Source: Clostridiales bacterium (GTDB lineage: Bacteria; Bacillota; Clostridia; Christensenellales; Borkfalkiaceae). From it: 41,070 bases of DNA. Under the pieces are notes generated by a model. It saw only the letters and a list, made by a program, of their open reading frames with translations, had not been told where the DNA came from and searched no databases. Below, piece after piece: positions 5,369-40,360 of this stretch (position 1 is the stretch's first letter; each line of letters starts with the position of its first letter). Both the position numbers and the translations under genes were made by a program. Where the stretch lies: assembly GCA_015055545.1 (NCBI GenBank), contig SVHY01000015.1, positions 1 to 41,070 of the forward strand, given 5' to 3'.

Positions 5369-6706
5369 ATGAACGTTTCCATTTTAGAATTCGGCGCTAC
5401 GCCTAACGCCGACGGTTTACAAAATACGTTTATCCAAAACGCAATCGACCATTGCTTTTTAAACGGTGGCGGCGAAGTCGTCGTGCCGTCTGGTAAATAT
5501 CTCGTCAGCGGTATACGCTTGCGCTCAAACGTTACTTTGCGTTTGTTATCGGGCGCAAATCTCGTCGGCTCACGTAAAATTGAGGATTATCGCGTACTTT
5601 TAGACGAAGACGCTATCGAACCGCTGCCCGAACGCATTATGCCCGAAATCCGTAAACCGCAAGACGAAACGGATTTACGCATGTATTATTGCGCAATAAT
5701 TCATATATACGCCGCCAATAACGTAGCGATTATCGGCGAAAAAGGCGCTGTTATCGACGGGCAGAACTGTTATAACCCCAACGGCGAAGAAGGTTTTCGC
5801 GGTCCGCATTGTATCAACGTTTTAAAATCCTCTAACGTAACCTTTAAAGGCTATACCGCCCAGCACGCGGGCGGCGATACGCACTGTATTTGGGCAAGCA
5901 AGAACCTGCTTTGCGAACATCTTACGCTGCTTGGTGGCAATAACGGTATTTCTTTGTATAAAACCAAGAAAATTACCGTTCGGTATTGCGATATCTCCAC
6001 CGGCAACGATTGTTTCGTCGGCTTTAACAACCACGACGTGTTTATCGAAGACAACGAGCTGAACACGTCCTGTAACTGTTTCCGTTTCGCCGGTACGAAC
6101 GTTACCATACGGCATTGCAACGCTCAAGGACCAGGGAAATACGGACACCGTTTAACCATGCCCAAGCAAGCGCTTATCGACGGCGAAATCGCCACCGCCG
6201 ACCGTTTTCCCGAATGTCGGTATAATCTAATCGGCTTCTTCATCTATTACGGCGACAAACGCATGTACGTACGGAAAACGTCGTCCAATATCATACTCAG
6301 CGATTGTAAAATCGTAAATTCTAATCGTTTTTTCACTTTCCAGTACGACGAATCCGATCCTTGGCAGCAAAACAAACCGTTATCGGATATAACGTTCCGC
6401 AACATCCAAGCGGAAGGCTTGCGAATCCCTATTTTGGTATACGGCAGCAAAAAATCGCCTATTTCCCTGTTCTTCGATAATTGTATCTTCCAATACGCAA
6501 ACGACAGGCGCAACAATCCGCTTATCAAGGTGGCTAATTGCAGCGATATCAAGCTATCCAACGTCAGTACGAATATGTACGGTTCAACGACGATTGCAAC
6601 GTACGGAAATTTCGTCAATAACATCTCCACGAAAGGCGATTATACGGAAAGCGAATTTAAAATCGGCGTGTGGGCTTTGGAAGATTTTGAAACGACGTTT
6701 ATTTAA
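5369..6706 (+). CDS. GH28-like right-handed beta-helix protein, altered acidic residues
   Basis: 445 residues, preceded by AAGGAG. The N-terminus (MNVSILEFGATPN, N-A-I-D, GGGEVVVPSGKYLVSGIRLRSNVTL) is the usual opening of pectate lyase and GH28 beta-helix proteins, and the rest shows repeated short strands. There is no signal peptide, so a cytoplasmic oligosaccharide hydrolase is the family expectation. Compared with its neighbour at 6862, two aspartates in the central helix are replaced: the HDG position reads NNG (Asn192) and GDDC reads GNDC (Asn213), with Asp214 kept. These align with the acidic cluster that forms the GH28 active site, so this paralog may be inactive or act differently. 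It is a single-gene unit ending at the terminator at 6716. Confidence 0.75.
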   Translation: MNVSILEFGATPNADGLQNTFIQNAIDHCFLNGGGEVVVPSGKYLVSGIRLRSNVTLRLLSGANLVGSRKIEDYRVLLDEDAIEPLPERIMPEIRKPQDETDLRMYYCAIIHIYAANNVAIIGEKGAVIDGQNCYNPNGEEGFRGPHCINVLKSSNVTFKGYTAQHAGGDTHCIWASKNLLCEHLTLLGGNNGISLYKTKKITVRYCDISTGNDCFVGFNNHDVFIEDNELNTSCNCFRFAGTNVTIRHCNAQGPGKYGHRLTMPKQALIDGEIATADRFPECRYNLIGFFIYYGDKRMYVRKTSSNIILSDCKIVNSNRFFTFQYDESDPWQQNKPLSDITFRNIQAEGLRIPILVYGSKKSPISLFFDNCIFQYANDRRNNPLIKVANCSDIKLSNVSTNMYGSTTIATYGNFVNNISTKGDYTESEFKIGVWALEDFETTFI

Positions 6707-6715
6707 TATTTTTGA

Positions 6716-6752
6716 ACGACCGCGAAAGGAAAATTTCCTTCGCGGTCGTTTT
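6716..6752 (+). terminator. Terminator after first GH28-like gene
   Basis: A long inverted repeat with ACGACCGCGAA and TTCGCGGTCGT arms followed by TTTTA. It separates the two GH28-like genes into different transcripts; it may work in both directions. Confidence 0.8.
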
Positions 6753-6786
6753 ATAAAAACAATTTTCACTATCTTTATCGCTAAAC

Positions 6787-6831
6787 TCTACAAAAAACAC
6801 TATTTCCTTTTACGGGGAAATTTGTTATAAT
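6787..6831 (+). promoter_or_regulatory. Promoter of second GH28-like gene with AraC-type half site
   Basis: -35 TTTCCT (6803-6808, poor), a 17-bp spacer and -10 TATAAT (6826-6831). The reverse complement of 6787-6803 is atagtgttttttgtaga, 12 to 13 of 17 bases like the other operator copies, and its end shares one base with the -35 box exactly as at 2325 and 4213. The distal half site expected 21 bp away is not convincing. The poor -35 fits activator dependence. Confidence 0.55.
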
Positions 6832-6861
6832 ATTGTAGATATTAACGTAGCGAGGTTTATT

Positions 6862-8190
6862 ATGCAACTTTCCATTTTAGATTGCGGCGCGACGTTGAAC
6901 GCCCAAACGCCGCAAACGGAATATATTCAAAACGCAATTGATAAATGTTATTTGTCGGGCGGCGGCGAGGTCGTCGTACCCAAAGGCGAATTTTTATGCG
7001 GCGGACTGCGTTTGCGCTCTAACGTTACTTTGCATTTATTAAAAGACGCAAAACTCGTCGGTTCGCGCAATTTAAACGATTACCGCGCCTTTTTTAACCA
7101 AGACGAATGGAACCCTATTCCTGAAAATTATCTTCCCGAATATAACACGGCAACGCCGCAAAAACGCGCGTGGTTCAACGCGTTTATCGTAATTTATAAC
7201 GAAAAAAACGTATCGATTATCGGGGGAGAAGGCTCCGTTATCGACGGACAAAACTGTTATAATCCCGACGGCGAAGAAAAATTTCGCGGTCCGCACTGTA
7301 TAACGGTAATACAATCGGAAAATATTACGTTTAAGGGCTATACGGTGGAAAACAGCTCCAACTGGGCGCACGCCGTTTTTACAACGAAAAATATTCTCGT
7401 GGACGACGTAACCGTCCTTGCTGGACACGACGGCGTACATTTTACCATCTGCGAGAACGTAACCGTCCGTAATTGCAAATTCTACACGGGCGACGATTGT
7501 ATCGCAGGTTGCGTCAACCGCAACGTTTTAGTGGAGGACTGCATTTTAAATTCGTCCTGTAACGCATTCCGTTTTTCGGGCGTACACGTACGCGCGTATA
7601 GATGCCACGCGTTCGGTCCCGGTCGCTTCGCTTGGCGATTGAGTCTGACGGACGAAGAAAAGAAAAACGGCGTTGTTGCAACGCCCAATCCTAACCGTTT
7701 TAACACCTTGCGTAGTTTCTTCTCCTATTTTATCGAAGGCAAACATTGCAAGGTGGAAGAACTTCCGTCCGATATGCTCTTTGCCGACTGTACCGTAGAG
7801 AATCCACAACGTTTTATTTCCTATTTCGTCGATTCCAACCATTCTTGGTTTAATCTTCCAGCGCAGGATATTACTTTCCGAAATATCAAAGCGACAGGCG
7901 TATACGTTCCCGTATTTTTATTCGGCGACACGGACGCGGCAAGCGCAAAAATCACTATGGAAAACTGTGACGTTCAGTTCTTGGAAGAAAGAAAACAAAA
8001 CGCTGCGTTTAAAATGGGCTACTTCCATACGGTACGCTTACAAAACGTTACGACGAACAGCACTTGCGAACGTCATATCGCGCTGTTCGGCGACGAAAAC
8101 GGTAAAATCGTCATCGACGGCGGCAACGTCCAAGCCCCCAACGATAACGACGTGTTCACAAAACCCGAATTTGAAACGAACTACGTTTAA
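6862..8190 (+). CDS. GH28-like right-handed beta-helix glycosidase
   Basis: 442 residues, cytoplasmic (no signal peptide), paralog of the gene at 5369 along its length. It opens with MQLSILDCGAT, N-A-I-D-K, GGGEVVVPKGEF and LRLRSNVTL. It keeps acidic residues in GHDG (Asp190) and GDDC (Asp211, Asp212), which correspond to the catalytic aspartates of polygalacturonase-type enzymes; the usual GHG and RIK motifs are not obvious, so the subfamily is unsettled. Likely role: hydrolysis of a galacturonan- or rhamnogalacturonan-type oligosaccharide after uptake. It starts a unit with the transporter at 8214, and its promoter carries an AraC-type half site. Confidence 0.78.
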   Translation: MQLSILDCGATLNAQTPQTEYIQNAIDKCYLSGGGEVVVPKGEFLCGGLRLRSNVTLHLLKDAKLVGSRNLNDYRAFFNQDEWNPIPENYLPEYNTATPQKRAWFNAFIVIYNEKNVSIIGGEGSVIDGQNCYNPDGEEKFRGPHCITVIQSENITFKGYTVENSSNWAHAVFTTKNILVDDVTVLAGHDGVHFTICENVTVRNCKFYTGDDCIAGCVNRNVLVEDCILNSSCNAFRFSGVHVRAYRCHAFGPGRFAWRLSLTDEEKKNGVVATPNPNRFNTLRSFFSYFIEGKHCKVEELPSDMLFADCTVENPQRFISYFVDSNHSWFNLPAQDITFRNIKATGVYVPVFLFGDTDAASAKITMENCDVQFLEERKQNAAFKMGYFHTVRLQNVTTNSTCERHIALFGDENGKIVIDGGNVQAPNDNDVFTKPEFETNYV

Positions 8191-21037: not shown

Positions 21038-23566
21038 CTATGAAAAACGGTATTCCCCGTTGATAAAATCCACCGTCACGCGTTGCCCGCCGACCACTTT
21101 TCCCATTAAGATTTCTTCGGAAAGCCTGTCTTCTATCCTACGCCGTACTACCCGTTTGAGCGGCCGCGCACCGTATAACGGATCGTATCCTTCTTGCACG
21201 AGCGCGTATAACGCGCGCTGTGTCACGCTCAACGTCACGCCACGCTGTTCTTGTAAGCGTTTGGCAAGCGACGCAATGATTTTGTCGCCTATCTTCACAC
21301 AATCTTCTGGGCTTAACGGGTGGAACACGATGATATCGTCCATGCGGTTTAAAAATTCCGGTTTAAAGCGCTCTTTCAGCGTTTCCGTCACGCGTTCTTT
21401 CATGCGCTCGTAATGCTCGCCCGTGGCAAGTCCCGCGTTTTGCGCCTCCTGTGCACCTGCGTTCGACGTCAAAATGATAACGGCATTTTTAAAGCTAACC
21501 GTCCTGCCCTTGCTGTCCGTCAACCGCCCGTCGTCCAAAATTTGCAAAAGCAAGTTAAACACGTCAGGGTGCGCTTTTTCGATTTCGTCAAAAAGCACTA
21601 CGCAATAGGGATTTGTCCGCACTTTATCGGTAAGCTGTCCCGTTTGCAAATCTTCGTATCCCGCATACCCCGGGGGCGCGCCGATGAGCTTGGATATCGA
21701 TTGCTTTTCCATATATTCGCTCATGTCCAATCGGAGCATCTGCTCTTCCGAACCGAACATAGTTTCCGCCAATGCCTTACAAAGGTCGGTTTTTCCCACG
21801 CCCGTAGGACCGACAAACATAAACGAACCGATCGGCCTCGACGGGTCTTTCAAGCCCGCGCGTGCTCTGCGAATGGCTTTTGCCACCGCACTCACGCCCT
21901 CGTTTTGACCGATAATTCTTCTATGCAAATCTTCTTCCAAGCGCAAAAGTTTCGCGCTTTCTTCCTGCGTAATTTTAAGGAGCGGAATTTTTACCCGTGC
22001 GCTGACGATTGCCGCAACCTGTTCTTTGCCGATTGCCGCTCTGCCGTCGGGTAAAATCAAGGGCGCTTGCGCCTGTTTTACCGCCGCAAGCTTGTCTTTT
22101 GCCAAGCGCAAATTCTCAAACGCCGCCGTAGCAAGCGCAAATTCACCCCTGCGTTCGCGTAAAACGCGTTCTTCTTCAAAATTACGGATTTCCGTTTCCA
22201 ACGCCTTGATTTCCGCGCCGCCGTCTTCTAACACGCGCACGCGCGCCGCCGCTTCGTCTATCAAATCAATGGCTTTATCCGGCAAAAATCTGTCGGTTAT
22301 ATACCGCGCGGAAAGCTTGACAGCCGTTTCAATCGCCTCGTCCGTAATGACGATGGAATGGTGCTGCTCGTATTTTTTCCGTAAACCTTGTAAAATGGCG
22401 ATAGCGTCTTTTTCGGACGGTTCTTCCACCCAAACGGGCGTAAACCGACGCTCTAACGCAGGATCTTTTTCGATATATTTACGGTACTCTTCAATCGTCG
22501 TCGCGCCGATGACCTGTAAATCCCCACGCGCAAGCATGGGTTTTAAGATATTCGCCGCGTCCATGCCGTTATCCGACGACGCGCCAGCGCCTACGATTGT
22601 GTGGATTTCGTCGATGAACAATACCACGTCGCCGTCTTCTATCACAGCGCCTATCATATCTTTCAATCTTTCTTCAAAATCCCCGCGATAACGCGCCCCC
22701 GCAAGCATACCCGGCATATCCACCGAAAATACCGTCTTGTTATACAGCTGTTCGGGTACGTCGCCGTTGACGATAAGCTGCGCCAATCCTTCGACAATCG
22801 CGCTCTTACCAACCCCCGGCTCGCCGATTAAAACGGGATTGTTTTTCAAACGGCGAGAAAGCACCTGTATCATCTTCTCGATTTCTTTTTGTCTGCCGAT
22901 AACGGGATCTATTTTTCCGCGCATAGCCCGTTCCGTCAAGTCCGTCCCGTACGCCGTCAGTTTTTCCACCGCGCCGCTCTTTTTCTCGTCCAAACGTTCA
23001 AACGCGCCGCCCTTTTCCATCGTCGGCGTTTGCATTTTCGGTTTGTCCACTTTCACCGTAGCCACGTCGTTGAAGTCCGCGTTCAACGGATCGGTTTGCA
23101 CGTGTTCCGCCTCACTCTCTTCGCCGAACAGTTTTTTATTTTTCAACGCTTTTAACGCCTGTTTCGTCCGTTCCCGTAACACTTCCACGTCGGCAAGCTT
23201 GCGTAAAATCTTCACCGCCATGCACTCGTCGTTTTCTAAAATCGCGTACAGCATATGTGCCGTACCCGCTTTCGTTTCCGTTTCTTCTGATAAGAGCACC
23301 GCTCTATCGTACATCGTCTGCGTACGACGGGTTAAGCCCTCGTATTTAGACTTGGTGTCGATACACTTAAAAAACAGTTCCTCGTACTCGCTTTTGGTCA
23401 CGCCCTCGCCCGCCAAAATCCCGTACGCGCTACACTGTGGCATACACAAAAACGCGTAGACGAAATGTTCGCTGCCTACGTAACCTGCGTCAAGCCGCAC
23501 GGTCGTTTCGTTGCACAGTTTCAACGCTTTTCTGAAATTTTCCGATGCTCTTGTAAGTGGATACAT
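21038..23566 (-). CDS. clpC: ClpC-type AAA+ chaperone/unfoldase
   Basis: 842 residues. Unfolds proteins, including those marked by McsB with phosphoarginine, and feeds them to ClpP. Order: Clp N-domain with two repeats (1 to about 145), first AAA module with Walker A GEPGVGKS and Walker B VLFIDEIHT, a coiled middle domain (EEERVLRERRGEFA), and the second AAA module with Walker A GPTGVGKT and VVLFDEIEK. The region where B. subtilis ClpC has its ClpP-docking VGF loop reads NAGLATG here, so the docking tripeptide is probably AGL. It follows mcsB by 29 bp and precedes aroC by 9 bp. Confidence 0.95.
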   Translation of the reverse strand: MYPLTRASENFRKALKLCNETTVRLDAGYVGSEHFVYAFLCMPQCSAYGILAGEGVTKSEYEELFFKCIDTKSKYEGLTRRTQTMYDRAVLLSEETETKAGTAHMLYAILENDECMAVKILRKLADVEVLRERTKQALKALKNKKLFGEESEAEHVQTDPLNADFNDVATVKVDKPKMQTPTMEKGGAFERLDEKKSGAVEKLTAYGTDLTERAMRGKIDPVIGRQKEIEKMIQVLSRRLKNNPVLIGEPGVGKSAIVEGLAQLIVNGDVPEQLYNKTVFSVDMPGMLAGARYRGDFEERLKDMIGAVIEDGDVVLFIDEIHTIVGAGASSDNGMDAANILKPMLARGDLQVIGATTIEEYRKYIEKDPALERRFTPVWVEEPSEKDAIAILQGLRKKYEQHHSIVITDEAIETAVKLSARYITDRFLPDKAIDLIDEAAARVRVLEDGGAEIKALETEIRNFEEERVLRERRGEFALATAAFENLRLAKDKLAAVKQAQAPLILPDGRAAIGKEQVAAIVSARVKIPLLKITQEESAKLLRLEEDLHRRIIGQNEGVSAVAKAIRRARAGLKDPSRPIGSFMFVGPTGVGKTDLCKALAETMFGSEEQMLRLDMSEYMEKQSISKLIGAPPGYAGYEDLQTGQLTDKVRTNPYCVVLFDEIEKAHPDVFNLLLQILDDGRLTDSKGRTVSFKNAVIILTSNAGAQEAQNAGLATGEHYERMKERVTETLKERFKPEFLNRMDDIIVFHPLSPEDCVKIGDKIIASLAKRLQEQRGVTLSVTQRALYALVQEGYDPLYGARPLKRVVRRRIEDRLSEEILMGKVVGGQRVTVDFINGEYRFS

Positions 23567-32163: not shown

Positions 32164-32721
32164 TCAATCGTTTGGCGAGCAGGTTGGTTCGGTGAGTTCC
32201 CAGCCGTTTCCAATCACCTTTTTCACGTTTCTACCCCACTCCAAGCCCTTTTTTATCGCGTTCCACGTTTCTATCGTGCCCCCGTAATGCACGCAAGTCA
32301 AAGCGTCGCAATGATAGAACGCGCCGTTTCCGATCGACGTTATCGACTCGGGTATGAACACCGTTGATAAATTTAAACAGCCCGCAAACGTAGCGTTTGG
32401 AATGGCGCGCAAAGAATTGCCTATCGTTACGCTTTCAAGCGCGCTACAACCCAAAAACACGCAACCGCCCATACTGTTTACGGAGTCTGGAATAACGATA
32501 TGCTCCAACCGCTTACAGTTTTTAAAAGCGTTTTCCAAGATAACGTGCGTTTTGGGGTTGATTTCATAACGCTTATACGTCGTTGCCGTCGCACCCACTA
32601 AGACGAGATAAGGATTGCTTTGATTTCCGAGATATTTCGCGTTTCCGTATATAGAAAACTCCAAGCCGTCGCAATCGGAGCAATCGTCTAATGGAAACAT
32701 AATTTTCTTTGATTTTGGCAT
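32164..32721 (-). CDS. BspA-type leucine-rich-repeat protein
   Basis: 185 residues from the ATG at 32721, six bases after GAGAAG. A GTG start at 32802 is in frame but would translate across the terminator hairpin, so it is less likely. No signal peptide, unlike the lipoprotein at 10086. After an N-terminal part (KKIMFPLDDCSDCDGLEFSIYGN) come about four LRR_5 repeats of 23 residues (ILENAFKNCKRLEHIVIPDSVNSMGG, SALESVTIGNSLRAIPNATFAGC and so on) and a tail with HYGGTIETWNAIKKG. Function unknown; probably protein binding inside the cell. Controlled by the leader at 32737-32908. Confidence 0.75.
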   Translation of the reverse strand: MPKSKKIMFPLDDCSDCDGLEFSIYGNAKYLGNQSNPYLVLVGATATTYKRYEINPKTHVILENAFKNCKRLEHIVIPDSVNSMGGCVFLGCSALESVTIGNSLRAIPNATFAGCLNLSTVFIPESITSIGNGAFYHCDALTCVHYGGTIETWNAIKKGLEWGRNVKKVIGNGWELTEPTCSPND

Positions 32722-32736
32722 AATCATCTTCTCGAT

Positions 32737-32768
32737 AAAAAAGTGTCGCTCCGCAAAGGAAACGACAC
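32737..32768 (-). terminator. Terminator within the leader, upstream of the LRR gene
   Basis: Ten-pair stem (two G-U) with a six-base loop and a run of six U, 16 bases before the LRR start codon. Its place ahead of the gene, not after one, is the mark of transcription attenuation. Confidence 0.8.
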
Positions 32769-32908
32769 CCTGTAAAAATGTCTTTTCGCTTTGCTGCGAC
32801 ACAATTCAATAAAATCCATTTCAAAGAACGTTTTTTATAACGCGAAAAAGATACACTTCTACCAAAAGAAGTATACGTCCTTTGAAATAAATTATTAAAC
32901 TATGTCGC
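32737..32908 (-). promoter_or_regulatory. Structured leader RNA, candidate riboswitch or attenuator
   Basis: Predicted RNA runs from about 32908 down to the U tract at 32737. Stem P1: GCGACA at the very 5' end pairs with UGUCGC (within 32795-32803). Stem P2: 14 pairs with one G-U between 32875-32888 and 32818-32831, enclosing a small hairpin (about 32851-32874). Then a terminator: GTGTCGTTTC / GGAGCGACAC, loop CTTTGC, six U. The second P1 strand (GUGUCGC) can instead pair with all seven bases GCGACAC of the terminator's 3' arm. That gives two exclusive folds, P1 plus terminator or antiterminator. Not a known class that I recognise. Confidence 0.65.
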
Positions 32909-32914
32909 AATTTT

Positions 32915-32943
32915 ATTTTAACACATTTTACTAGCTTTTGCAA
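32915..32943 (-). promoter_or_regulatory. Promoter of the leader RNA and LRR gene
   Basis: On the minus strand, -35 TTGCAA (32938-32943), a 17-bp spacer and -10 TAAAAT (32915-32920). The expected first base is 32908, so the RNA begins precisely with the GCGACA strand of P1. Confidence 0.75.
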
Positions 32944-33015: not shown

Positions 33016-33738
33016 TTATAGCAAGCTTGCGGCATCTTTGTCGCAAACGATAGTCACGTTGGGGTGTAATTGCAGTACGGACGCGGGCAAATCAACGGTG
33101 ATTTCGCCTTTTACCATACCCTTTACCGCCTCCGCTTTATTCTTGCCGGAAACGACCATAATAATCGATTTTGCTTGCATGATATTTTTGATACCCATAG
33201 ACAACGCTTGACGAGGAACTTCGTCGATGGAATTGAACAAACGGGAGTTGTCTTTAATGGTGCTTTCCGTCAAATCCACGATATGCGTAACGGACGAAAG
33301 CGGCGTACCCGGTTCGTTGAAACCGATGTGTCCGTTCGAGCCAAGACCAAGCACTTGGATATCCTGCGTTTTCGTTTCCAAAAGCGCGTTATATCTATCA
33401 CATTCCGCTTGCAAGTCCTTTGCCGAACCGCAAGGAAGATTCGTGTTGTTCATGTCGATCTCGATACCTTTGAAAAGGTTTTCGCGCATGAAATACGCAT
33501 AGCTTTGGTTGTGATCCGCCGTCAAGCCCACGTATTCGTCCAAGTTCACGGTCGAAACGTTTTTATACGACGTACCGTTTTCCTTATGGTCCTTAATCAT
33601 GTTTTGATACGTACCGATAGGGCTTGAACCCGTAGCCAACCCAAGCACGCAGTTGGGATTATTCTTTACAACGCTGATGATGATTTCAGCGGCTTTTTTG
33701 CTCATTTCTTCGTAATTTTCCGTAATAATAACTTTCAT
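33016..33738 (-). CDS. nagB: Glucosamine-6-phosphate deaminase
   Basis: 240 residues. Turns glucosamine 6-phosphate into fructose 6-phosphate and ammonia, feeding amino sugars into glycolysis. Motifs: LGLATGSSPIGTYQNMI (phosphate loop), TVNLDEYVGL with the catalytic aspartate, QVLGLGSNGHIGFNEPG with the catalytic histidine, and KAEAVKGMVKG near the C-terminus. About 25 residues shorter at the C-terminus than the E. coli enzyme, as in Bacillota. No nagA is next to it. Confidence 0.96.
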   Translation of the reverse strand: MKVIITENYEEMSKKAAEIIISVVKNNPNCVLGLATGSSPIGTYQNMIKDHKENGTSYKNVSTVNLDEYVGLTADHNQSYAYFMRENLFKGIEIDMNNTNLPCGSAKDLQAECDRYNALLETKTQDIQVLGLGSNGHIGFNEPGTPLSSVTHIVDLTESTIKDNSRLFNSIDEVPRQALSMGIKNIMQAKSIIMVVSGKNKAEAVKGMVKGEITVDLPASVLQLHPNVTIVCDKDAASLL

Positions 33739-33939: not shown

Positions 33940-34031
33940 GCAGAAGTACCCAAGAGGCTCAAGGGGCTCCCCTGCTAAGGGAGTAGTATGGGAAAACCGT
34001 AGCGCGGGTTCGAATCCCGCCTTCTGCGCCA
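33940..34031 (+). tRNA. tRNA-Ser (anticodon GCU)
   Basis: 92 bases including an encoded CCA. Acceptor stem GCAGAAG / CTTCTGC with discriminator G; anticodon loop CTGCTAA gives anticodon GCT for AGC and AGU codons; a long variable arm (class II, typical of serine) and a T arm with GGTTCGAATCC. The 3' side adjoins the integrase region, and a 14-base part of the variable-arm region recurs at 34204. Confidence 0.96.
33979..33992 (+). repeat. 14-bp word in tRNA-Ser repeated at 34204
   Basis: GGGAGTAGTATGGG, spanning the end of the anticodon stem and the variable arm, recurs exactly at 34204-34217. Possible attachment-site core or a copy left by an earlier integration. Confidence 0.5.
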
Positions 34032-37051: not shown

Positions 37052-40000
37052 TTAGCTTACTAAAAAGGCAATTCCGCGCACCAAATACGGTACTGCTACT
37101 AAAAGTGCAAAGATAACTACAAGCCCGATGCCGTAATTTACTAACATTTTCTTCGCTTTTGCCTTATCCTCATTCTTGTGGGCTATAATCATTGCAACAC
37201 CCATTGCAATCGACCAAACACCTGCTGTTGCTAAGAACACCCAAATCATATATGGACTGTACTCATCGAAAAGATATTCCACGTAATTAGATACTCTTTC
37301 GTATTGCGCGCCAACATCTTGGTCATAATAGTCTCCACAATGCGAACACGCATATCTTCTTGTGATCATTCCATCTGCATTTTTTTCATCTACAAGCTCG
37401 TAATTGTGTCCTCTTGCAGGAATTACATCGACCTTTTCATAATCACATCTACTGCAAGCATAATAGCGTTCCCCATTATCTACACAAGTAGAAGCAAGCC
37501 TTACATTCGTTTCTAACGAGTGTCCACTTGGACTTACAATATTTGTTCGATACTCATATTGACATACTAAACAAGTGTGTAATACACATCCCTCTTCCGT
37601 ACACGTAACCTCAATATATGTCTCTACATAATCGTGTCCATTTGCTTTCAGTATTTGTGTCTTATATGTATCACTACATCTTGCACAACATTGTCCGATA
37701 AAACCCTCTTCCGTACAAGTCGGTTCTACCCTCTTAAGCTGATAATCGTGTCCGAGCGCATCAACAAAGGTATCATTGTAGCCCGTTCCACATCTTGAAC
37801 AAATATGAGTTGTATAACCTTTGTCCACGCAAGTAGGCTCAATTACTTCGGGTTCATAAGAGTGTCCCAATGCAGGGATTGCTTCGTTATATTTATAATT
37901 ACAAGTAGCACAAGTTTTGTATCTTAAACCGTTCTCCGTACACGATGCACTTGTCGTAATTTTCCAAGCGCCATAATCGTGTCCGTGCGCATTTACGTAG
38001 TTTTCAATATAACTATTTCCACAAGCACTACAAGTCTGCGTTGTATAACCTCTATCCGTACAAGTTGCTTCCGTTACTTTAGCTACGTATTTATGCCCTT
38101 TTGCATTTACATAAGTATTCACATACGTATCATCGCATCTGCTACACACGTGAGTAGTATAACCTTGTTCCAGACAAGTTGGTTCGGTAATCGTCGCAAC
38201 GTAATCGTGTCCTTTGGCTCCCACTTCTTCCGTTTCATACGCACCGCAACTGATACAATCTCGCCGCCTCGTTCCCGTTTCTAGGCACGTGGAATCTTTT
38301 ACGATATACCAACCGCTAAAATCGTGTCCGTTTGCAGAAACTACGTCATCGTTAAACGTTGCGCCACAACGAGAACAAGTATAAACCGAATAACCCTCAG
38401 CCGTACAAGTCGAATCTACAACCTTTGTAACAATATAGTTATGACCAAGTGCATCTACAAAATCTGCATTATAAGTATCACCGCAATTATCACATTTGTA
38501 AATCGAATATCCGTCTGCCGTACAGGTTGGCTCAACCGTAGTTGTCTTTACATAATAGTGGTCAATAGAGAAGTTATAAGTAGTTGAACGATTGGCATCA
38601 TTTTTCAATACAAATGTATGGTCTCCCTCTGCTTTAATCCACGTTCCATTCACATAACTTTCTCCATTTAACGTTCCTGAACAATTATTATCCGTCCAAA
38701 TTACGCAAACCTGATTACCATTGCTTGCTCTAACAATTTGAGCAGTCGGTGGTGCAACATATAATGATACTGAATACGTTGCAGACCTGTTTCCATATCC
38801 GTCCGTTGCATAGAATTGATATGTTCCATCCTCGTATGTTTTAGGAAAAGTAATTGACGTTGTAGTAGACTGAACAAAATTACTACTCGATGGCATTTTA
38901 TAATATAATGTTGCGCCACCAATATTATCCGATGCAGAAACAGTAAAACCATCACTTAATGTATCGCCCCAATTCCCTTTTGATAATGAAACGGTTGGCG
39001 CTATATTATCTAAGGATATTGTTACCGTCGAAGATGAATTACCTGCTTTATCAACACAATAGAACGAATATGTACCATTCGTAGTTAATTGAGTTCCATT
39101 AGTGTATGTTGTATAGCCACTTGCATTAGGCATTTTAACATACACCGTATTCAATCCTGATGCAGCATCCGAACCAACGTACTTGATATAGCTTGCTGTT
39201 GATTTTGTGCCTGAACTTACAGCAGATGTTCCACTATATAACACGCCTACGGGATTAACACTATCAAGATAAATTGACTTTGTTTCTGATATATTTCCTG
39301 CTTTATCAACAGCCCTAAATTGATATGTCCCATTAGTTGCGCTTGCTGCAATTTGTGTTCCCGAAGTATAGGTTGCCCAACTTGAAGAACTCGGTGTTTT
39401 ATATTGCAAATAACTTATTCCACTTTGTCCATCACTTGCCGTATAGGAAAATGCTGAGTTTGTGTACGAGCCCGTTAGCGTGGTTCCACTTGCATTTTTA
39501 ATCACTCCTGTTGGTTTCGTATTATCAAAATAAACATAATACGTTGAAGATTGGTTTCCTGCTTTATCCTTTGCATAAAAACAATATAGACCGTTTACAT
39601 CCGATGCACTTACAGTTTTCGACGAACCTACTGCACTATAACTACTTGTCGAAGGTGTTTTTACATATAAGTTTTCCAATCCACTCGTACTATCACTCGC
39701 AGTTACCGTAAACGCAGAAGTCTTGTAGTACGTCGTGCTTGTAGATGCTCCGCTTACAGTCGGTGCAGTTGCATCAATCTTAAAAGCAGTTGTAAATGTA
39801 ATCGTTGTTTGCTTTGAAGTATAGTTAGGATATGATGCCATATAGTCCGAAGCATACCACGTGTACGTTAAGGTATAACTGCCATCAGCCAAAGTTCCTG
39901 AATATAACGTTGCACTTAATGACTTACCCGATGCCGCCGTACTATTAACAATAGCCGTCCCACTTGCATTTGTTAAACGTACCGACGTAATTCTTGATTG

Positions 40001-40360
40001 TGTTCCCGATGTTGCTATTCCTACATCGGCAATAATATTTACACTATTGAAAGTAAAATACTGCCCTTTTGTTGCCGTTGCGCTTCCTGAATATGATGTC
40101 CCATATAATTTTAGCGCCATTGTCCTTTTGGTGTACTGTCCAAACGAATAGGATGTTACATTAGTATCAGATACAGTAACTGCTTGTTGCATACCATAGG
40201 CAGAATATGTACCCGTATAGTCAAATGGCATCGTATAATACGGTGTAGTTGCCGCACTCGCCGTTACTTCTCCACCGCCGAAAAGAAATCCGAAGCACAT
40301 ACAAATTGCAAAAAGCGCGGATAGAAGAAAAAATTTCGCTTTTTTAGTTTTTATTTTCAT
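37052..40360 (-). CDS. Large surface protein with Ig-like and Cys repeats and VirB2-like tail
   Basis: 1102 residues. Signal peptide 1 to about 36 (MKIKTKKAKFFLLSALFAICMCFG...VTASAA). A beta-rich part (40-195), then four Ig-like repeats of about 85 residues, each ending in a DKAGN- or DGYGN-type turn. Next come ten to eleven 36-residue repeats with C-x10-C-x2-C and GH(D/N)Y (PTCTEEG...TCSRCG), probably zinc or disulfide modules, to about 1010. At the end two membrane helices (about 1037-1060 and 1074-1100) are joined by a short basic loop (HKNEDKAKAKKML), the layout of VirB2/Maff2-like conjugation proteins. Starts inside the end of the VirB4-type gene (17-bp overlap). Likely a mating adhesin or pilin-linked protein. 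Confidence 0.8.
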   Translation of the reverse strand: MKIKTKKAKFFLLSALFAICMCFGFLFGGGEVTASAATTPYYTMPFDYTGTYSAYGMQQAVTVSDTNVTSYSFGQYTKRTMALKLYGTSYSGSATATKGQYFTFNSVNIIADVGIATSGTQSRITSVRLTNASGTAIVNSTAASGKSLSATLYSGTLADGSYTLTYTWYASDYMASYPNYTSKQTTITFTTAFKIDATAPTVSGASTSTTYYKTSAFTVTASDSTSGLENLYVKTPSTSSYSAVGSSKTVSASDVNGLYCFYAKDKAGNQSSTYYVYFDNTKPTGVIKNASGTTLTGSYTNSAFSYTASDGQSGISYLQYKTPSSSSWATYTSGTQIAASATNGTYQFRAVDKAGNISETKSIYLDSVNPVGVLYSGTSAVSSGTKSTASYIKYVGSDAASGLNTVYVKMPNASGYTTYTNGTQLTTNGTYSFYCVDKAGNSSSTVTISLDNIAPTVSLSKGNWGDTLSDGFTVSASDNIGGATLYYKMPSSSNFVQSTTTSITFPKTYEDGTYQFYATDGYGNRSATYSVSLYVAPPTAQIVRASNGNQVCVIWTDNNCSGTLNGESYVNGTWIKAEGDHTFVLKNDANRSTTYNFSIDHYYVKTTTVEPTCTADGYSIYKCDNCGDTYNADFVDALGHNYIVTKVVDSTCTAEGYSVYTCSRCGATFNDDVVSANGHDFSGWYIVKDSTCLETGTRRRDCISCGAYETEEVGAKGHDYVATITEPTCLEQGYTTHVCSRCDDTYVNTYVNAKGHKYVAKVTEATCTDRGYTTQTCSACGNSYIENYVNAHGHDYGAWKITTSASCTENGLRYKTCATCNYKYNEAIPALGHSYEPEVIEPTCVDKGYTTHICSRCGTGYNDTFVDALGHDYQLKRVEPTCTEEGFIGQCCARCSDTYKTQILKANGHDYVETYIEVTCTEEGCVLHTCLVCQYEYRTNIVSPSGHSLETNVRLASTCVDNGERYYACSRCDYEKVDVIPARGHNYELVDEKNADGMITRRYACSHCGDYYDQDVGAQYERVSNYVEYLFDEYSPYMIWVFLATAGVWSIAMGVAMIIAHKNEDKAKAKKMLVNYGIGLVVIFALLVAVPYLVRGIAFLVS

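Follow-up and report, generated by a model that had tools for sequence, protein, structure and literature searches.

The leader in front of a leucine-rich repeat (LRR) gene in contig SVHY01000015.1 of a Clostridiales bacterium (assembly GCA_015055545.1; the window, i.e., the whole stretch of 41,070 nucleotides that was analysed) represents a class of RNA that occurs in many copies. Computational comparison of the copies reveals a common structure, a characteristic promoter placement, an association with the gene that follows, and a tail (T) that is complementary to two competing partners. Judged from the sequences, the class is probably a cis-acting, transcription-terminating RNA attenuator of an uncatalogued kind, a reading to which we assign a probability of roughly three in four; that it is, more specifically, a small-molecule riboswitch appears evenly balanced on the same grounds.

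The organization of the window copy is given in Table 1. The RNA comprises around 172 bases and ends in a T-run at position 32737. Its predicted fold (-64.8 kcal/mol) is far more stable than the mean of shuffled sequences (-33.1 kcal/mol; z -8.3; 0 of 200 shuffles as good), and the P1 stem GCGACA/TGTCGC continues into P2 almost unbroken. A preliminary description of this DNA had proposed a promoter (TTGCAA, 17 bp, TAAAAT), an RNA start GCGACA that pairs with a later UGUCGC, and a complete terminator just before the gene. The promoter is present on the minus strand, the pairing is confirmed by the predicted fold, and the terminator, which a simple terminator scanner missed, forms its stem under constrained folding. 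Downstream of it, ATG starts are found at 32727, which is the first one after the terminator and lies nine bases beyond it, and at 32721. The frame of the LRR gene has no stop codon as far back as a GTG at 32802, within the RNA; this extension is taken to be fortuitous.

Table 1. Organization of the leader in the window, from the whole element to the controlled gene
Feature	Position	Strand	Basis or remark
Whole RNA element	32737..32909	minus	covariance model match 168.7 bits; fold z -8.3; predicted transcript start G 32908
Promoter, -35 TTGCAA, 17-nt spacer, -10 TAAAAT	32915..32943	minus	sigma-70-like; read in sequence
P1 5' strand	32892..32909	minus	constrained folding and covariation
P2 5' strand	32877..32887	minus	folding; sequence variable, complementarity conserved (own-partner z -49.6)
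P3 5' strand	32868..32876	minus	folding and covariation
P3 3' strand, also complementary to tail T	32851..32859	minus	P3b:T z -11.0
J3/2	32831..32850	minus	32842-32850 (CUUUUUCGC) can pair with tail GCGAAAAG; z -12.2
P2 3' strand	32819..32829	minus	folding
P1 3' strand	32795..32812	minus	folding
Tail T, putative switch strand	32772..32794	minus	complementary to J3/2 plus P3 3' strand (z -16.0) and to terminator 5' arm (z -18.8)
Terminator 5' arm, alternative partner T (antiterminator)	32758..32768	minus	duplex test and folding
Terminator 3' arm (32752-32743) and U-run (32742-32737)	32737..32752	minus	covariation and folding
Controlled gene, 187-aa BspA-type LRR protein	32164..32727	minus	LRR_5 PF13306 E 5e-23

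Upstream of the promoter, the minus strand carries a nagB-like gene (33016-33738; PF01182), followed by a terminator-like site. Elsewhere in the window, a tRNA gene (33940-34028, plus strand) is followed by a gene for a tyrosine-type phage integrase (34277-35674, minus strand), as at an integrated element; an open reading frame of 1102 aa (37052-40360) exhibits no Pfam match at E 1e-4; and two adjacent pectin-active-like proteins (pectate lyase-like and GH28; 5369-8190) fit a plant-fibre gut niche.

A nucleotide search of 61 genomes gave 48 places in 22 of them, including six in the window's own genome, one of only 34 bp; 47 were confirmed by BLAST, the 34-bp match (L013) was not. Leaving out a truncated copy (L052) and a chance match (L053), alignment A1 contains 45 copies, and the covariance model R1 was built from it with P1 set by hand. 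Matches to R1 are found in 46 of the 57 genus genomes (up to 10 per genome), and several of the 11 genomes of the genus without a match are incomplete. The window's genome contains seven, five strong and two weak; its weaker copies L056 and L057 (G000:C1:57517-57694 and 21465-21639; 59 and 53 bits) do not begin with the customary TGCGACA and represent a divergent subtype, seen also in L058. Outside the genus the counts are lower bounds, with seven to nine first-look candidates scored per genome: R1 matches at least 58 of 297 genomes in the order sample and at least 51 of 291 in the class sample, and in the phylum sample of 398 only the window's genome among the candidates scored. Scanning named genomes for a DNA pattern yielded at least 120 stretches, and 76 of the 80 listed match R1 at E 0.01 or better. 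The stretches listed belong mostly to Clostridia, Oscillospiraceae and Ruminococcus metagenome-assembled genomes, many of them, by their titles, from deer, goat, sheep, buffalo or rabbit (Lapin) samples. Among the four listed stretches without an R1 match (L145, L155, L177, L207) are all the Gammaproteobacteria and Bacteroidales records of the listing.

Plasmids gave no match with the window leader or the L059 copy as query, and of four pattern matches in viral contigs only L258 contains the element. Two human faecal records deposited as phage carry it as well (MT835845.1, L260; MT837627.1, L261; found with the L059 copy as query only). Since MT835845.1 exhibits a lipoprotein reading frame downstream of the element and a second gene that we take to be YicC-like, it is probably bacterial chromosome mis-binned as phage.

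Concerning the anatomy of the class, P1 (TGCGACA.../...TGTCGCA) has 14 pairs in the model, P2 a median of 13 bp, and P3 is a hairpin whose loop usually contains GGUA (GUAUACUUC..GGUAGAAGUGUA or GUAUUUUUA..GGUAAAAAUGCA). J3/2, on the 3' side between P3 and P2, has a median length of 15.5 nt; T and then the terminator follow 3' of P1. For a covariance-model search with a check for compensatory changes, as the preliminary description had suggested, the outcome is positive: the class is found in Clostridia, and all 32 modelled pairs (P1, P3, terminator) exhibit pair-keeping changes on both sides in 95 copies, i.e., matches from 88 loci, which are a subset of the loci. In the same helices and copies 95.0% of the cells are paired, a value that leans towards structure because the covariance-model alignment is fitted to it, compared with a mean of 74.8% after shuffling (0 of 500 shuffles as high); registers slid by one to three columns reach 33-55%, none of them above 54.9%. 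G·U cells greatly exceed A·C cells, with 560 as against 54 (P1 119/28, P3 185/25, terminator 256/1; gaps and the remaining mismatches account for a further 711 cells), which argues for selection on the RNA made from this strand. RNAalifold, applied to a plain MAFFT alignment, finds P3 and the terminator, and as a third helix part of the P1 3' strand joined to the tail; P1 and P2 were not found, probably because their register differs between copies.

P2 was examined through duplex energies. This and the other duplex, energy and 10-mer tests were run on 142 non-redundant, fully segmented rows out of 191 (alignments A2 and A4; A4 includes some low-scoring antisense matches, of which the 142 rows may retain some). 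In these 142 copies, 138 distinct 10-mers adjoin P3, such that the P2 sequence is free, and nevertheless the two strands of P2 are complementary to their own partner (z -49.6 against shuffled partners).

The same test reveals two possible pairings of the tail. T is complementary to the 5' arm of its own terminator (z -18.8 against shuffled partners), the window copy having GCAAAGCGAAA-AGACA with TGTC-GTTTCCTTTGC and distant copies CGGAGUUAUGCA with UGCGUGGCUUCG. It is also complementary to the sensor side, i.e., to J3/2 (z -12.2), to the P3 3' strand (z -11.0) and to both together (z -16.0); the J3/2:T pairs read CUUUUUCGC/GCGAAAAG in the window, GCUUUGAUU/AAUCAAAGC in L063, UUAUCGU/ACGAUAA in L058 and CUAUUUCGC/GCGGGAUGG in L081. 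These partner-shuffle tests ignore the relatedness of the copies; in each subgroup (76 window-type and 66 distant copies) 0 of 1000 shuffles were as good, and negative controls remain near zero (P1a:T -1.0, P2a:T -1.2, P3a:T +2.6). Among the 45 genus-level copies, six J3/2:T pairs can be aligned, and nearly all of their variation falls on one of the two sides, so that the covariation of this pairing rests mainly on the distant copies. Tail lengths vary by single nucleotides between 20 and 28 nt, by which any reading frame is shifted, a point that bears on the question of a leader peptide.

By contrast, the switch claimed in the preliminary description, in which the P1 3' strand pairs with the 3' arm of the terminator, is not conserved in the class. 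The seven-base match GUGUCGC/GCGACAC can be read in the window copy, but over the 142 copies the pairing is barely better with own than with foreign partners (z -1.9), with z 0.2 in the 66 distant copies and z -2.8 in the 76 window-type ones (matched by 7 of 1000 shuffles), which makes it no more than a local addition. On sequence grounds, the conserved candidate for the switch strand is the tail after P1 (32794-32772).

The antiterminator (-64.8 kcal/mol) and terminator (-63.9 kcal/mol) states of the window copy are nearly isoenergetic; the terminator stem has a probability of 0.38, and of 1.0 when T is kept unpaired by constrained folding. Averaged over the 142 copies, the terminator has -14.5, the antiterminator -15.2 and the duplex of T with P3b and J3/2 -14.4 kcal/mol, and in 80 copies it is the antiterminator that has the greater stability. 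The leader contains a conserved structured domain and, at the sequence level, candidates for mutually exclusive structures: both T pairings covary, and the terminator and antiterminator states lie within 1 kcal/mol of each other.

The attenuator might accordingly be pictured as follows. Transcription would start at the first G of P1, and the RNA would fold into a long rod consisting of P1 (around 14 bp), P2 (around 13 bp of free sequence), the conserved P3 hairpin and the conserved J3/2. The emerging T would then face two competing partners, the terminator's 5' arm on the one hand and J3/2 with the 3' side of P3 on the other. Held by the sensor domain, it would leave the terminator free, and transcription would stop; placed on the terminator 5' arm, it would form an antiterminator, and the downstream gene, usually that of an exported surface protein, would be transcribed. 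That both pairings are used, which of the states is ON and which OFF, and that a small ligand is sensed rather than a protein, an RNA or a physical cue, is what we infer. Concerning the geometry, around 4 nt connect T to the foot of P1, and J3/2 is situated around 27 bp up the rod, beyond P1 and P2. For T to pair with J3/2 in cis, the rod would thus have to bend sharply, or P1 to open. Of the two, a sharp bend between P1 and P2, which are similar in length (14 and 13 bp), may be the more likely, and pairing with P3b would also need P3 opened; with neither bend nor opening of P1, a trans or dimer model would be needed to account for the covariation of T with J3/2 and P3.

Riboswitches built on a terminator platform resemble the class in the sensor-like conserved domain, the competing strand, the antiterminator and terminator, the multicopy regulon and the tandem copies; they differ in that the class is without a match in Rfam 15 at cut-off and that its targets are mostly surface lipoproteins and BspA-LRR proteins. 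T-box leaders likewise choose between terminator and antiterminator in leaders of Bacillota, whereas no Rfam match assigns the class to them. The same cis attenuator could also be thrown by a protein, a trans-acting RNA, temperature or the kinetics of ribosome or polymerase instead of a small-molecule ligand. This is consistent with the free sequence of P2, because of which the conserved core consists mainly of P3, J3/2, T and the ends of P1, and the near-perfect rod of around 27 bp could be a substrate of RNase III or of a protein. However, metabolite-binding leaders are usually laid out in just this way, with a conserved core, stems of free sequence and a competing tail; we regard a trigger other than a small-molecule ligand as rather unlikely.

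Concerning the nature of such a ligand, riboswitches for c-di-GMP (GEMM-I, GEMM-II) often control surface and adhesion genes in Clostridia, and in this respect the class is similar to them; it differs from them in lacking an Rfam match, and the search for GGDEF, the c-di-GMP-producing domain, gave nothing in 53 of the 57 genus genomes, the window's (83% complete) among them. With GGDEF in just four of the 57 genomes, many of which are incomplete, and the RNA in 46, c-di-GMP was rejected as the general ligand, being hard to keep in this role within the genus, and the signal may be an unrecognised one. The c-di-AMP synthase family DAC is present in 56 of the 57 genomes, which says nothing either way about c-di-AMP.

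The direct targets are mostly exported proteins. A signal-like N-terminus is found in 94 of 130 direct targets as against 62 of 336 other genes of the same loci (Fisher p 1.5e-27), and a lipobox in 59 of 130 as against 18 of 336 (p 6.6e-23); the calls were made by a crude home-made predictor, and copies from related genomes are not independent, such that the counts overstate the sample size. Pfam scans covered the targets of 86 of 131 copies, with a start within 60 nt, and 43 of a listed 57. LRR_5 is the commonest family (32 of the 86 and 13 of the 43); Listeria-Bacteroides repeats, Ig-like, MBG, collagen, M23, CHAP and subtilase domains also occur. The remaining 36 of the 130 targets are without a signal-like N-terminus, and the cytoplasmic-looking minority comprises zinc ribbons, TIR domains (L019, L151), SLOG-like domains (L147, L154; below and above a family cut-off, respectively) and very small proteins, because of which the signal is not obvious. 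The 187-aa protein of the window is among those in which the predictor finds no signal-like N-terminus; of the earlier remark that a cytoplasmic LRR protein is an odd target, the LRR_5 gene is borne out, but it is not typical, since most targets of the class do have such an N-terminus, and it is an exception within it. Defence-system models gave few scattered matches on the 86 targets and nothing coherent. TIR-domain and SLOG-like proteins are tied to nucleotide-derived signals, and these targets are a possible clue to the ligand.

The preliminary description recognised no known class, and the search of Rfam 15 agrees, with no family reaching its cut-off for the element. At gathering cut-offs the window contains nothing in the leader and one tRNA elsewhere; up to E 10 the leader gives ten sub-threshold matches, the best of which (E 0.036) is a microRNA model far below its cut-off; and in 39 loci that carry the element only tRNA and tmRNA exceed theirs. 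A matching published motif was found neither in Rfam 15 nor in the open-access literature searched, including the available portions of PMC8040213, PMC11109978, PMC8632094, PMC2864571 and PMC6429828.

The element might still correspond to a published candidate class, which would affect its name only and not the mechanism. A human-microbiome survey of 2021 describes, according to its accessible text, thousands of RNA models that are placed in supplements (PMC8040213). The SLH motif of Stav et al. (2019), as described in the accessible part of that paper, is a riboswitch candidate upstream of surface-layer protein genes in Clostridia, Negativicutes and Synergistaceae, with around 60% of the motifs preceding SLH proteins (PMC6429828). 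Compared by description only, it shares with the class a leader position before genes of cell-surface proteins, Clostridia included, and three SLH-like targets were noted by eye (L065, L120, L125), all of them more than 60 nt downstream and outside the Pfam scans. On the other hand, its range includes Synergistaceae and Negativicutes and its dominant target family is a different one, LRR_5 being the commonest here, and the SLH domain is absent among the 25 families listed of 42 (86 direct targets) and of 30 (43 direct targets). Because of this difference in the dominant target family, identity with a published class is considered improbable.

The placement of promoter and gene exhibits a similar regularity across the copies (these counts, like those of the exported targets, include the first 75 of 96 A4 rows). 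A distance of exactly 5 nt separates the end of the best -10 hexamer from the element in 153 of 194 distinct copies, a spacing that predicts a start at the first G of P1, and 172 of the 194 pass the -10 score threshold compared with 94 of 970 random positions. Of 193 copies, 131 have a ribosome site with an open frame that begins within the next 60 nt (14-58 nt after the element), compared with only 4 of 192 on the divergent side; the RNA is thereby linked in cis to the gene that follows. Complete units can be stacked before one gene, four of them in L147, three in L058, and two each in L059, L060, L063, L072, L104, L157 and L171. At L147 (6628-7438, minus strand) four promoter-RNA-terminator units of two alternating subtypes precede one SLOG-like gene, and this stack looks like a multi-input regulatory array.

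A family of stand-alone, trans-acting small RNAs with their own promoter and terminator, situated near surface genes by chance or duplication, would likewise form complete promoter-RNA-terminator units, some in tandem, and 62 of the 193 copies are indeed without a ribosome-site gene start within 60 nt. Against it stand the downstream excess of gene starts just mentioned and the covarying antiterminator pairing, for which a pure small RNA would have no need; furthermore, the RNA is at most weakly complementary to the start of its own downstream gene (P2a z -1.3, P2b 0.5, T -2.0, P3b with J3/2 -2.7). We consider this family quite improbable. A DNA-level element, such as an integron attC-like palindrome or a MITE-like mobile repeat, would also be multicopy and palindromic with conserved ends and a free inner stem sequence, but it is very hard to reconcile with the excess of G·U over A·C in P1, P3 and the terminator, which is not strand-symmetric and indicates selection on one RNA strand, with the complementarity kept in P2 despite its diversity, and with the promoter spacing and gene phase kept by most units.

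Present in many copies and clearly two-state in its anatomy, this regulatory RNA has a coherent regulon in which exported proteins predominate; the gut Clostridia that carry it are represented here almost exclusively by metagenome-assembled genomes. Chances seem about even that the attenuator described here is a new riboswitch class of these bacteria, which would respond to a signal other than c-di-GMP, at whose nucleotide-derived nature the TIR and SLOG-like minority may hint, and which, in units that can be stacked up to four deep in one locus, would set the surface coat of lipoproteins and BspA-LRR adhesin-like proteins. As such, the class offers a testable handle on the choice of surface proteins in gut Clostridia.
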